Shown piece after piece: positions 58,711 to 64,000 of a stretch of 64,000 bases of DNA. A model generated the notes under the pieces. The model had not been told where the DNA came from. It was given only the letters and a program-made list of their open reading frames with translations, and ran no database searches. Where the stretch lies: NCBI GenBank assembly GCA_021811315.1, contig JAJZPF010000014.1:1-64000 (forward strand), given 5' to 3'. The DNA comes from a bacterium (GTDB taxonomy: Bacteria; Elusimicrobiota; Elusimicrobia; Elusimicrobiales; UBA9959). A program made the translations under genes and the position numbers. Each line of letters starts with the position of its first letter. The first letter of the stretch is position 1.

Positions 58711-58758
58711 TTGACAGGCCCGCGCCCCCTCTGCTACAATTTATCTACCGGTAGGTAA
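58711..58758 (+). promoter_or_regulatory. Promoter and TetR-type operator of the efflux operon
   Basis: TTGACA (58711-58716) and TACAAT (58735-58740) with an 18-base spacer. At once follows TTATCTACCGGTAGGTAA (58741-58758), an 18-bp palindrome with one mismatched pair, over the expected transcription start. A TetR-family domain is encoded 14 bases further on, so autorepression is likely. Confidence 0.82.
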
Positions 58759-58771
58759 GTTTTTCGCATTT

Positions 58772-60649
58772 ATGAAACAACAAAAGACACCCAAAGAAAC
58801 GAAGGGCGACAAGACCCGCCAGCGCATCCTGGAGACGGCCTCCGCCCTGATGGCCGAGAAAGGCCCGGACGGCGTCTCGATGCGCGAGATCTCCGCCAAG
58901 CTGAAGATCACCAAGCCGGTGCTCTACTACTATTTCAAGGATAAGGACGAGCTTATCCGGGCCTCCTTCACGGAAGGGACCAAGCATTTCGAAGAGCTCA
59001 ACATGGAGATAAAGGACTCCGGCCTGACGCTGGAGCAGAAGCTGGAGCGGATCTTCTCCAACCACCTGGCCTTTATCAGGCGCTACCCCGACATGCCGAA
59101 GTGCGCGCTCAAGATAATAGCCTCCCCTTCGGAAGGCGTGCTGAGCCAGATGCACAGGGAATTCAAGACCAATAACCGCGCCGCGCTGCGCCGGATGCTG
59201 GAAGAGGAGAACCTGCCGCGCCGGGCCGCGGAGGACATCATCCATATGGTGGGCGCGGTGCTGGCCCATTTCATGATAGAGGCCCGCGAATTCGGGGCGG
59301 CCAGCCTGGACAAAAGCCTGCCGGCCCGCCTCGCCGGCATCATAACGCGCGGCTCGCGCGGCCTGAAGGCGGCCCTGGTCATCTTGCTGCTCTCCCCCCT
59401 GCTCGCCAAAGCCCAGGCCGCCGGCCTCAGCGTCGACTCGGCGGTGGACCTGGCCATGAAGAACAACACCTCCGTGGCCAACGCCGAGCGCTCCCGCCTC
59501 ATCTATAAGGAGAAGATCCTGGAGTACTGGGGCGGGGTCTACCCCCAGCTGAGCGCCAGCGCGCAGTACACGCGCAATATAGAGAAGTCCTCCATATTTT
59601 TCGGCGGCAAGAAGATAACGATGGGGCTGGACAATTCCTATGCGGCCTCGCTGGACCTGAACCAGGTGCTCTGGGCCGGCGGCAAAGTGCACACAGGGAT
59701 AACGATGGCCGGCATCTATTCCGACTCCAGTTCGGAGCAGCTGCGCGCGGCCAAAAACACGGTAAAAAAAGCCGTCACCCAGCTCTATTATTCGGTGCTC
59801 CTCTCCAAGGCCATGGCGGACATACAGAAGGAGACGCTGGAACTCGCGAGGCAGCATTTAGCCACCATAGAGGCCCAGTATAAACAGGGTCTCGCCAGCG
59901 ACCTGGCCGTGCTGCGCCAGAAAGTGGAAGTCTCCAACAACGAGCCCGCCGTGACGCAGAACCAGAACTATTACGAGCTGGGGCTGCTCTCGCTTAAGAA
60001 TCTCCTGGGCATGGAGCCCGACGCCCCGCTGGCCCTTTCCGGGAGCATGGGCTGCGCGGCGCAAAGCGCCCCCGCGCTGGAAACTCTTTACGCGAAGGCC
60101 ATGGCCTCCCGCCCGGAATACCGCCTGGCGGACCTGCAGAAAAGGCTGGCTTTCGAGAACATAACGATAGAAAGAGCGGGCCACTATCCTTATCTCGGGG
60201 CTTACGCGACGAAGCAGTTCCAGGGCCAGACCAACGGCGGCTTCCCCGGCGCCGACGAGCGCACCTGGAGCCTGTCGGCCGGGCTGAGGCTCAGCCTCCC
60301 GCTTTTCTCCGGCGGCGCGGTGGTCTCCAAGGTAAAGCAGGCCGAACTTGAACTGGCCATAGCCGGCGAAAACCTGAAAAATACGGGGCGCGAATTGAAG
60401 ATAGCGGTGAAAAAAGCCTGGCTGGAGCAGAACGAAGCCGCGCAGCGGCTGGCCTCCCAGGAGACCGCGGTGCAAACGGCCAGGACGGCGCTCGCCGCCA
60501 CGGAACTCCGCTTCCGCAACGGCCTTGCCGGGCAGCTGGACCTTAACGACGCGACGCTGGCCCTGAACAGGGCGCAGACGCTTTACACCCAGGCCCAGCA
60601 CGACGTCTGCGAGGCGGCCGCGGAGCTGGCGTGGGCGGTAGGGGAATAG
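58772..60649 (+). CDS. TetR regulator fused to TolC-type outer-membrane efflux protein
   Basis: 625 residues in one open frame. Residues about 14-195 are a complete TetR-family regulator: the helix-turn-helix RILETASALMAEKGPDGVSMREISAKLKITKPVLYYYFKDKDEL and a helical ligand domain. A hydrophobic stretch with signal-peptide character follows (about 198-216, GLKAALVILLLSPLLAKAQAAG). Then comes a full TolC family domain (about 218-625) starting LSVDSAVDLAMKNNTSV and with two outer-membrane efflux repeats. No in-frame ATG or GTG lies close before the hydrophobic stretch. It is followed by a membrane-fusion protein and an RND pump. Confidence 0.9.
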   Translation: MKQQKTPKETKGDKTRQRILETASALMAEKGPDGVSMREISAKLKITKPVLYYYFKDKDELIRASFTEGTKHFEELNMEIKDSGLTLEQKLERIFSNHLAFIRRYPDMPKCALKIIASPSEGVLSQMHREFKTNNRAALRRMLEEENLPRRAAEDIIHMVGAVLAHFMIEAREFGAASLDKSLPARLAGIITRGSRGLKAALVILLLSPLLAKAQAAGLSVDSAVDLAMKNNTSVANAERSRLIYKEKILEYWGGVYPQLSASAQYTRNIEKSSIFFGGKKITMGLDNSYAASLDLNQVLWAGGKVHTGITMAGIYSDSSSEQLRAAKNTVKKAVTQLYYSVLLSKAMADIQKETLELARQHLATIEAQYKQGLASDLAVLRQKVEVSNNEPAVTQNQNYYELGLLSLKNLLGMEPDAPLALSGSMGCAAQSAPALETLYAKAMASRPEYRLADLQKRLAFENITIERAGHYPYLGAYATKQFQGQTNGGFPGADERTWSLSAGLRLSLPLFSGGAVVSKVKQAELELAIAGENLKNTGRELKIAVKKAWLEQNEAAQRLASQETAVQTARTALAATELRFRNGLAGQLDLNDATLALNRAQTLYTQAQHDVCEAAAELAWAVGE

Positions 60650-60700
60650 GAATCGGGAGTCGGGAGTCAAGAATCGAGGATCGGGGATCGAAGAACGGGA
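60649..60700. repeat. Heptamer-type spacer repeat
   Basis: ATCGGGAGTCGGGAGTC, AATCGAGG, ATCGGGGATCG between the TolC stop and the lipoprotein start: a 7-base array of the TCGGGAN family. Confidence 0.75.
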
Positions 60701-60708
60701 ACAAATTT

Positions 60709-61596
60709 ATGAAAAACATTAAAACGCAAATACTTGTTTTGACGCTCGCGGCGGCGGCGCTCGCCTCCGGGTGCAGGAATAAAGAGCTGGAAGCTTTCAA
60801 CAAACTTGAGAAGGACCGCTTCCTGGTAAAGACCGAGAAGGCACAGGTGAGGAACCTGGAGGAATACATCCTGCTGACCGGCTCGGTGAAAGCCATGGAC
60901 GAAGCCACGCTCTATCCAAGGATCTCCGGCAAGCTTATGAAGAACCTCCTGAAAGAGGGCGACCCGGTAAAGAAAGACGAGGCCGTGGCCCTGATAGAGC
61001 GCGACGAGGTGGGAACGGTCTACGAACCCGCGCCCGTGCCGTCCACGCTGACCGGGGTGGTCGGCCGCGTCTACCAGGACATCGGCGCCAGCGTAAATCC
61101 GCAGACCCCTATAGCCCTGGTGGTCAACCAGGGCATGGTCCGGGTGGCGGTGGACGTGCCCGAGAAATACATAGGCAAGGTTTTCAAGGACCAGCGCGCG
61201 CGGATTAAGGTGGACGCCTTCCCAGACTCCTACTTCTCCGGCAGCGTCTACCGCGTCAGCCCGGTGGTGGATTCCCGCTCGCGCAATACGCTGGTGGAGG
61301 TGCTGGTGGACAATATCGACGGGCGCCTTAAATCGGGAATGTTCGCCGAGGCCCGCCTGATAACGGCCTCCCGGGGCGCGGCCCTTTCGGTGCCGGCCGG
61401 CGCGGTGGTGAGCCAGGACGGAGGAGATTTCGTGTTCGTGCCGGCGGCGGGGAACCTCGCCGCCAGGGTGCCGGTGAAAACCGGGATAAAGACGGACGAC
61501 TTCGTGCAGATCAGCGGCGTAAAAGAGGGCGCGGAAATCATAAGCTTCGGACTGTACGGTTTAAAAGACGGGAGCAAAATAAAAGTGCAGAATTAA
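60709..61596 (+). CDS. RND efflux membrane-fusion lipoprotein (HlyD/AcrA type)
   Basis: 295 residues from the ATG at 60709. The lipobox LASGC puts the lipid-modified Cys at about 21. The barrel-sandwich (lipoyl) half-motifs (GSVKAMDEATLYPRISGKLMKNLLKEGDPVKKDEAVALIE and PSTLTGVVGRVYQDIGASVNPQTPIALVVNQ) are followed by a beta-barrel with VDVPEKYIGKVFKDQRARIKVDAFPDSYFSGSVYRVSPVVDSRSRNTLVEV and a membrane-proximal domain. The long helical hairpin of AcrA is absent or very short. It links the inner RND pump to the TolC-type channel. Confidence 0.93.
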   Translation: MKNIKTQILVLTLAAAALASGCRNKELEAFNKLEKDRFLVKTEKAQVRNLEEYILLTGSVKAMDEATLYPRISGKLMKNLLKEGDPVKKDEAVALIERDEVGTVYEPAPVPSTLTGVVGRVYQDIGASVNPQTPIALVVNQGMVRVAVDVPEKYIGKVFKDQRARIKVDAFPDSYFSGSVYRVSPVVDSRSRNTLVEVLVDNIDGRLKSGMFAEARLITASRGAALSVPAGAVVSQDGGDFVFVPAAGNLAARVPVKTGIKTDDFVQISGVKEGAEIISFGLYGLKDGSKIKVQN

Positions 61597-61757: not shown

Positions 61758-64000
61758 ATGAAAATAACAGATGTCGCGGTCAGCAAACCGATCTTTACCA
61801 CCATGATGATCCTCACGATCGTGGTGCTGGGCGCCTTCTCCTACTTCCGCCTGGGCGTGGACCTCTTCCCCAACGTAGAGTTCCCCTTCGTGATAATCCA
61901 GACCACCCTGCGCGGCGCCGGCCCCGAAGAGGTCGAATCCTCGATCACCAAACCCATCGAGGAAGCCGTGAATACTATTTCCGGCATCGAAGACATCGCC
62001 TCTACCAGCTACGAGGGCCTCTCGATAGTGATGGTGAAGTTCATCCTGGAAAAGAACGGCGACGTGGCCGCCCAGGAAGTGCGCGACAAGGTCAACTCCG
62101 CGCAGCGCCAGCTGCCGCAGGGCACCGACGCGCCGATGATAGCCAAGTTCGACATGGGCGCCACCCCGGTGCTTAACGTGGTGGTCTACGGCAACCGGGA
62201 CCTGATAGATCTGACCCAGCTGGCCAGGAAAAAGATCAAGGAGAACATCGAGACCGTCAACGGCGTGGGCGCCGTGGACATCGTGGGCGGCCGCGAGCGC
62301 GAGATCCACCTGGTAGTCAACCCGCTGAAGCTTTCGGCCATGAACCTGTCGATAAAACAGGTCAAGGACGCCATCATCCAGCAGAATATCGAGATCCCCG
62401 GCGGCAAGGTGGAGCAGAAGAACAAGGAATTCGTGCTCCGCACTATGGGCCGCATCCAGAACGTAAAGGATTTCAACGATATCGTCATTACCACCATAAA
62501 CGGCACGCCGGTGCGCGTCTCCGACATCGGCAGCGTCGAGGATACCGGGGCCCGCATGACGACCTCTTCCTCCTACAACGGCGCCCCGTCCGTCACCCTG
62601 GTGGTTAAGAAGCAGTCCGGGACAAATACCGTGGCCGTGGTCAAGAACATCAAGGCGCGCCTGGAGGAGTTGAAGAAATCCCTGCCGCCCGGCGTGGAGA
62701 CCAAGATAATCGGCGACCAGTCCATTTTCATCCAGGCCTCGGTCGACACCGTTAAAGAACACCTGGTGCTCGGCGCCATCCTGGCCGCGCTTATGGTGCT
62801 GCTTTTCCTCGGCGACTTCCGGTCCACCATCATCTCCTCGCTGGCCATTCCCACCTCGCTCATCGGCACGCTGATCTTCATGGACCTCTCCGGCTTCACG
62901 CTGAACAACATGACGCTCCTGGGCCTGACCATCGCCGTCGGCATAGTCATAGACGACGCCATCGTCATGCTCGAGAATATCTACCGCCACATGGAGGAGC
63001 ACAAGATGGACCCGCTGAAGGCCTCGCTGGAAGGCTCGCGGGAAATAGCTTTCGCCGTGCTGGCCATGTCCACCGCGCTCCTGGTCATCTTCGTGCCGCT
63101 GGCCTACATGGGCGGGATCGTAGGCCGCTTCATAAAGAGCTACGGCCTCACCATAGCCTACGCCGTGGCCATCAGCACCTTCGTGGCCCTGACGCTTACG
63201 CCCATGCTCTGCTCCATCTTCCTCAAGGTCAATCCCAAGGGCAAGACCGGGATGCAGAAGCGCACCGACAGGATCAACGAGTTCCTGGCCAAGTATTACA
63301 TAATGATGCTGGAATGGTCGCTGGCCCGCCGCAAGCGCATGGTCGCCTTCGCGGTGATCATAATGCTCTCCATGGTCCCGCTGGCCATGTTCCTGGGCAA
63401 GGACTTCCTGCCCTCCGACGACACCGGCCAGTACCAGATCATCATAACCGCGCCGGAAGGGACCAGCCTCTCGATGATGAAGCAGATCTTCGCGCAGGTG
63501 GAGACCGAGACCAAGCAGATCCCTTACGTGGTAAATACGCTGTCCTCCATCGGCACCGGCACGGGCAGCCACAGCGGCTCCTCGGCGCCCAACGAAGGTT
63601 ATGTCCTGGTGGAGGCGGTCGACATAAAAGACCGCTCACTGCCCATTTCCAGGCTGGTGCTGGCCTCGCGCGAGATGATGAGCAAATACAAAGGCCTGCG
63701 CGTCTCGGTGGCGGCCGTAGGCGGCTTCGGCGGCGGCGAGGCCGAGCTGCAGTACAATATCTCCGGCCCGGACCTGAACAAGCTCAACGAATATTCCATG
63801 GCCGTGGCCGACCGGCTGCGCAAGGTCAAGGGCGCCGTCGACGTGGACACCAGCTTCTCCTACGCCAAGCCGGAATACCGCGTCGAGATAGACCGCAAGC
63901 GCGCCCACGACCAGGGCGTGAAGGTGGAGGATATCGCCACTTCCCTGCGCACCATGGTGGGCGGCGAAGAGGACATCACCAAGTTCAAGGACGGCGACGA
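61758..64000 (+). CDS. RND efflux pump, partial (cut by window end)
   Basis: 747 codons are visible; the C-terminus lies beyond the window. The N-terminus MKITDVAVSKPIFTTMMILTIVVLGAFSYFRLGVDLFPNVEFPFVIIQTTLRGAGPEEVESSITKPIEEAV is that of AcrB/HAE1-type pumps. The periplasmic porter domain and helices TM2-6 follow, with the proton-relay Asp pair in GIVIDDAIVMLENIYRHMEE and the R-rich loop RKRMVAFAVII before the second half. It is a proton-driven exporter of unknown substrate and works with the two genes upstream. The start ATG follows TTTTTTAGGTATTATTT. Confidence 0.95.
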   Translation, partial: MKITDVAVSKPIFTTMMILTIVVLGAFSYFRLGVDLFPNVEFPFVIIQTTLRGAGPEEVESSITKPIEEAVNTISGIEDIASTSYEGLSIVMVKFILEKNGDVAAQEVRDKVNSAQRQLPQGTDAPMIAKFDMGATPVLNVVVYGNRDLIDLTQLARKKIKENIETVNGVGAVDIVGGREREIHLVVNPLKLSAMNLSIKQVKDAIIQQNIEIPGGKVEQKNKEFVLRTMGRIQNVKDFNDIVITTINGTPVRVSDIGSVEDTGARMTTSSSYNGAPSVTLVVKKQSGTNTVAVVKNIKARLEELKKSLPPGVETKIIGDQSIFIQASVDTVKEHLVLGAILAALMVLLFLGDFRSTIISSLAIPTSLIGTLIFMDLSGFTLNNMTLLGLTIAVGIVIDDAIVMLENIYRHMEEHKMDPLKASLEGSREIAFAVLAMSTALLVIFVPLAYMGGIVGRFIKSYGLTIAYAVAISTFVALTLTPMLCSIFLKVNPKGKTGMQKRTDRINEFLAKYYIMMLEWSLARRKRMVAFAVIIMLSMVPLAMFLGKDFLPSDDTGQYQIIITAPEGTSLSMMKQIFAQVETETKQIPYVVNTLSSIGTGTGSHSGSSAPNEGYVLVEAVDIKDRSLPISRLVLASREMMSKYKGLRVSVAAVGGFGGGEAELQYNISGPDLNKLNEYSMAVADRLRKVKGAVDVDTSFSYAKPEYRVEIDRKRAHDQGVKVEDIATSLRTMVGGEEDITKFKDGD

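Follow-up and report, generated by a model that had tools for sequence, protein, structure and literature searches.

How can a DNA-binding repressor of the cytoplasm and a channel of the outer membrane be encoded as one chain, and what becomes of that chain? The question is raised by an uninterrupted open reading frame (58772..60649, + strand, ATG to TAG, 625 amino acids) in a 64,000-nucleotide stretch of DNA, hereafter the window, which comprises positions 1-64,000 of the forward strand of contig JAJZPF010000014.1 (assembly GCA_021811315.1; Elusimicrobiota, UBA9959). The genome from which the window derives is 63% complete. The original prediction had read the frame as a complete TetR regulator, a signal-like hydrophobic stretch and a complete TolC protein within 625 codons, a reading that was confirmed by the unbroken frame and by Pfam matches at both of its ends.

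The first 195 residues (58772..59356, + strand) were assigned to a TetR-family repressor on the basis of Pfam, modelled helices, Foldseek and dN/dS. TetR_N (PF00440) matched residues 19-64, the DNA-binding HTH (58826-58963, + strand), with an E-value of 1.4e-14 and 54 bits against a cut-off of 24; on the same chain, OEP (PF02321) matched the TolC-type outer-membrane channel (residues 217-625, 59420..60646, + strand) in two stretches reaching residue 620 (E 1.5e-55, 188 bits). Exactly between the two domains lies the hydrophobic stretch LKAALVILLLSPLLAKAQA (residues 198-216), contained in an internal signal peptide (residues 196-216, 59357..59419, + strand; RGLK / AALVILLLSPLL / AKAQA) with a predicted cut after A216. 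An AlphaFold2 model built from a 22-row alignment (mean pLDDT 82.9) placed nine helices in the TetR part, from 11-30 through 183-195, and a TolC fold after residue 217, the two ordered domains flanking a segment of very low pLDDT at residues 197-217. Foldseek matched the TolC part to TolC (1ek9; E 9.5e-18, TM by target length 0.80) and the TetR part, with weaker E-values, to 3f1b, 3whb (FadR) and 3lhq (AcrR) at target TM 0.64-0.75.

Residues 1-195 satisfy two criteria of the TetR family, an N-terminal TetR_N HTH and an all-helical fold with a C-terminal ligand/dimer domain, and the TolC part satisfies one of the outer membrane factors by its OEP domains and TolC fold. A further criterion of the outer membrane factors is not met: the signal peptide is internal rather than at the N-terminus of the gene product, and therefore the TolC domain is a family member while the whole gene product is a fusion. 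An outer-membrane trimer working with adaptor and pump would also be expected of this family, and adaptor and RND genes do follow. The NCBIfam model type_I_sec_TolC scored 161, under its own cut-off of 225, so we do not claim this subfamily name.

Conservation and origin of the fusion

The original prediction had proposed looking for the same join in other genomes. That search, run here, recovered the whole 625-residue protein, stop-free and in one frame at 58-95% identity, in 29 of the 31 other genomes of the genus; the two exceptions (G008 and G023) gave weak matches only, to other TolC or TetR genes, and therefore carry no split version of the gene but are missing it or its contig. HMMs built from the fused protein extended the count to 54 distinct, non-duplicate fused loci in Elusimicrobiota, a large uncultured bacterial group, with a gene GC of 26-69%. 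Within the family the fusion is found in many genera, and beyond it in further families of the class (G169, G212; the copy in G163 is truncated); named relatives include the Elusimicrobia metagenome-assembled genomes (MAGs) RIFOXYA12_FULL_57_11 and GWC2_61_19. Across the 45-codon junction, the fused frame was open at every one of the 54 loci, with stops in the +1 frame of 53 and in the +2 frame of 20. Chance openness from high GC was ruled out because low-GC members (26-43%) are also fused. The fusion is real, and it is conserved. Separate genes in close relatives, which had been named as grounds for rejecting the join, are not the rule: nearly all close relatives are fused, although the sister family has split genes, as do a few cases that look secondary.

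A contig search beyond the phylum, restricted to two peptide patterns and 80 loci, found no fusion outside Elusimicrobiota; the relatives in Calditrichota, Nitrospirota, Cloacimonadota, Ignavibacteriota and Gemmatimonadota are adjacent split genes, and fusions elsewhere are not excluded. Among plasmid records, no match covered more than 80% of the query, and the best matches spanned the TolC part only.

On a tree of the TolC parts (108 rows, quick method, with unsure placement of deep long branches), one group with a support of 86 held 51 fused and 2 split sequences. Its sister group consisted of 26 split sequences, mostly from the sister family, in which tetR and tolC are separate but neighbouring. 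Two more fusions were placed far off: L040/L152, a distant paralogue of 27% identity with a separate TetR gene immediately upstream, and L149. The fused/split label requires five changes on this tree, and the distance of L040/L152 and L149 from the main group makes at least three separate fusion origins likely, as far as such a tree can resolve them. L040 (G028:C51:72500-78000) and L152 (G151:C27:6100-9000) come from different genera and their proteins are almost identical, which suggests a recent transfer or MAG contamination. In another locus (L006, G000:C43:6201-9386), one open frame at 1294-2661 apparently holds two tandem TetR-like HTH segments.

In the split relatives, tolC often follows in frame right after the tetR stop, as in L042 ('...DKK', stop, 'MKRASF'). 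In the two split members within the fused group (G156 and G176), the tolC ATG overlaps the tetR stop as ATGA; both tolC genes possess a proper ATG, and each product has its own N-terminal signal peptide. These two look like secondary fissions, a one-base assembly error being excluded for neither, and for G176 an early split remains a possible alternative.

The junction between the two halves

Signal-peptide features were scored with a simple script rather than a trained predictor. By this measure, a hydrophobic core and a small -3/-1 pair were present at the junction of 54/54 fused loci, a strict AxA in 44/54, and a net positive charge ahead of the hydrophobic core in 52/54. The AxA-type sites stand directly before the conserved start of mature TolC, and the segment keeps its form while varying more in sequence. 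This is the anatomy expected of a polyprotein cut at an internal signal peptide: a single chain in which the inner signal peptide has an n-h-c layout and small residues occupy -3/-1. Export of the TetR part, which the original prediction had left as an option, is disfavoured by the positively charged n-region.

The strongest competing explanation, which we nonetheless regard as unlikely, holds that a hidden start late in the TetR region (ATG168, codon 198 or TTG205) makes most of the TolC, the fused frame being a by-product of overlapping genes. A hidden start had been envisaged from the outset alongside the remark that no ATG or GTG lies near the junction; the remark is slightly off, in that TTG205 and ATG168 are in frame, and neither carries a Shine-Dalgarno (SD)-like motif. 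The idea draws support from ATG168, which encodes a conserved TetR methionine and is found in 26/30 genus copies, from codon 198, which is the tolC start position of the split relatives and reads ATG in 7/30 genus copies, and from the split relatives themselves, where tolC often begins right after the tetR stop or overlaps it. Several lines of evidence oppose it: i) no SD-like motif precedes ATG168 (0/26 genus copies), against 16/30 adaptor genes in an identical test; ii) in the remaining genus copies codon 198 has drifted to what we count as non-start codons, reading TTG, CTG, CTC, CTT, CTA, TTA, GCC, GCG or GCT; iii) synonymous conservation reaches its minimum at residues 186-205 (z -2.3), whereas it is raised at the true start, residues 1-15 (z +2.1); iv) an incidental join predicts drifting frames or stops, and no drift was seen in the 54 loci; and v) where the genes are split inside the fused group (G156 and G176), tolC has a proper ATG. 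A conserved hidden internal start is thus unlikely on the sequence evidence, while weak internal initiation cannot be excluded from it, given the prevalence of ATG168. What fits best is an AxA-type cut with TetR on the cytoplasmic side and at first tethered, although the cut itself has not been shown.

Promoter, selection and the rest of the operon

The operon promoter comprises a -35 box, TTGACA (58711..58716, + strand), and a -10 box, TACAAT (58735..58740, + strand), separated by an 18-bp spacer; nearly all genus copies have a TTGAC-like -35 box in roughly this position, and the -10 box reads TATAAT in many relatives. Between the -10 box and the start codon lies a putative TetR operator, TTTATCTACCGGTAGGTAAG (58740..58759, + strand), with the core TACC-N4-GGTA at 58746-58757. 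An 18-bp palindrome had been predicted at the promoter, in keeping with TetR autocontrol; a palindrome is indeed present, but what is perfect is a 10-bp core, CTACCGGTAG (58745-58754), within a 20-mer that shows 3 mismatches to its own reverse complement. Conservation of the palindrome is the stronger evidence, because 30/30 genus copies have TACCGGTAGGTAAGT downstream of the -10 box and ahead of the ATG. The 20-mer has a single site in the window genome at up to 3 mismatches, and TACC-N4-GGTA recurs upstream of tetR in many split relatives and at a few loci of other phyla. The repressor half probably controls the efflux-pump operon; the operator-like palindrome is conserved, and repression is inferred in the absence of binding data.

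A perfect-armed palindrome, TTTACC-GCTC-GGTAAA, was also noted shortly upstream of another TolC gene (G000:C26:215388-215403; L177, L002), which is followed by adaptor and ABC-type genes; the 4.1 kb inspected there contained no TetR gene. It is possibly a second target of the fused gene's repressor or the site of another repressor.

Both halves of the fusion are maintained. For the three closest pairs, dN/dS was 0-0.07 in the HTH, 0.11-0.24 in the TetR core and 0.08-0.16 in TolC; values well under 1 in both halves indicate that both are kept, and purifying selection acts on each. These values bear on the proposal that the TetR part is vestigial, a mere leader for TolC that regulates nothing, for which two naturally truncated copies could be cited: L053 (G003:C47) has lost TetR residues ~48-174 in frame and retained its start, signal peptide and TolC, and L137 (G163:C64) has lost the HTH with the signal peptide and TolC intact. 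In both, however, the control region has decayed as well: L053 lacks a recognisable -10 box and carries a one-base change in one half-site of the operator, while the operator of L137 has decayed. In these cases, therefore, an intact operator accompanies an intact TetR. Together with the strong constraint on the HTH in full copies and the retention of the operator throughout the genus, this leaves a vestigial TetR a slim prospect.

Downstream of the fused gene lie a gene for the periplasmic adaptor (MFP) lipoprotein of the pump (60709..61596, + strand; HlyD_D23, RND_mfp), the start of which is similarly placed in 30/30 genus copies, and a gene for an RND efflux transporter (61758..64000, + strand, continuing beyond the window end; ACR_tran 659 bits, RND_permease_2). 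The spacer upstream of the adaptor gene (60650-60705) is composed of degenerate GGAATCGGGAGTC-like repeats, which are found at the equivalent spacer position in several relatives (L007, L010, L011, L012).

The operon also bears on whether the product is cut at all. Were it to stay whole, TetR would be a cytoplasmic sensor held by an inner-membrane-anchored TolC, and the single chain, with a signal-like segment that could serve as a plain membrane anchor, would allow this. A TolC so anchored could not occupy the outer membrane, however; AxA-type sites are kept just ahead of the conserved mature start, and the usual adaptor and RND genes follow, as with an ordinary channel, so that we hold the chances of an uncleaved product to be slimmer still. 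Virtually no chance is left to an artefact in which assembly error or frameshift joined two genes, the finding that by the original prediction's own account would have overturned it: the sources are nearly all draft MAGs, but the same join recurs in dozens of separate assemblies of widely differing identity, with a nearly constant junction length, and the artefact is already refuted.

Proposed processing model and known systems

The family-wide arrangement suggests joint synthesis of the pair followed by separation at the membrane, cleavage being an inference. We propose that the gene encodes a self-regulating polyprotein, TetR-signal peptide-TolC, which is cut at the membrane and whose TetR part represses its own operon; we put the probability of this reading at roughly 0.7, with cleavage, tethering or release, repression and ligand all inferred. 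From one start codon, a single chain would be made, the TetR part of which would fold in the cytoplasm and give TolC's signal peptide a very long n-region. The internal signal peptide would insert N-in, an orientation predicted from the positive charge ahead of the core, and direct the TolC part into the Sec pathway, so that TetR would stay cytoplasmic while TolC is exported. Signal peptidase I would cleave after the AxA motif (~residue 216) and free TolC, and the mature protein would reach the outer membrane and join the adaptor and RND pump of the same operon. TetR would be left at the cytoplasmic face of the inner membrane, anchored at its C-terminus by the spent signal peptide, from which an RseP-type site-2 protease (S2P) may later release it. 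A TetR dimer would bind the TACC-N4-GGTA operator over its own transcript start and repress the whole operon, and a ligand would relieve the repression. Such a polyprotein under autorepression would supply one repressor per channel subunit.

E. coli RseP removes signal peptides following leader-peptidase cleavage (PMC8144685), and removal of this type would free TetR. Signal peptidase I and S2P protease families were present in 6/6 near-complete relatives tested; the window genome, 63% complete, yielded a partial S2P-type match and no signal peptidase I. Counting against the polyprotein, a folded 195-residue n-region is unusual for Sec export, and there are no protein or RNA data. A more tentative extension, which we consider doubtful, is that TetR stays tethered until cut by signal peptidase and then S2P, making repression of the pump operon dependent on channel export. 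If true, TetR release would report channel export, an export-coupled feedback loop within one gene.

Should the polyprotein reading hold, a single chain gives rise to both a DNA-binding repressor of the cytoplasm and a channel of the outer membrane, in an arrangement that is kept family-wide and has apparently arisen on more than one occasion. Two questions become testable: whether Sec can export a protein that has a folded regulator of 195 residues ahead of its signal peptide, and whether a spent signal peptide can couple export to transcription. It also carries an annotation warning: Elusimicrobiota entries named 'TolC family protein' may include their own repressor.

None of the component parts is new in kind: both TolC channels and TetR repressors that act locally on efflux operons are textbook matter. 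What is unusual is the join. We found no description of a TetR-TolC join in the open-access papers searched, nor anything on point there for membrane-bound TetR or fbcH; subscription papers and domain-architecture databases were outside the scope, and we make no claim of priority.

The cytochrome b/c1 protein of Bradyrhizobium japonicum (fbcH) is a polyprotein of two respiratory-chain proteins that is cut at an internal signal peptide. The TetR-TolC gene likewise encodes two proteins in a single chain, joined by an internal signal peptide, the cut here being inferred; unlike in fbcH, one of the two is a DNA-binding repressor. By analogy, we take cytochrome b/c1 to be the nearest precedent for the logic. 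With the AcrR-type TetR local repressors of RND efflux operons, the locus shares the N-terminal HTH, the all-helical ligand domain and the promoter palindrome, as well as an operon that also encodes an adaptor, an RND pump and an outer-membrane channel; the general scheme of such local repressors is described in PMC8277102. With the TolC or outer membrane factor family it shares the OEP domain, TolC fold, signal peptide and pump operon, and it departs from that family in the place of the signal peptide, which lies inside the chain and follows a DNA-binding protein of 195 residues.

CadC and ToxR are membrane-bound one-component regulators with an N-terminal DNA-binding domain, and the fused protein resembles them in that a single membrane-spanning segment follows a regulatory domain located in the cytoplasm. 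It resembles the FecR/RseA type of intramembrane proteolysis (PMC8144685) in that release by S2P is possible. In contrast to either group, the DNA-binding domain belongs to the TetR type, and an outer-membrane channel's signal peptide provides the membrane-spanning segment. For as long as the spent signal peptide remains, the anatomy fits that of a membrane-tethered one-component regulator, with stable anchoring inferred.
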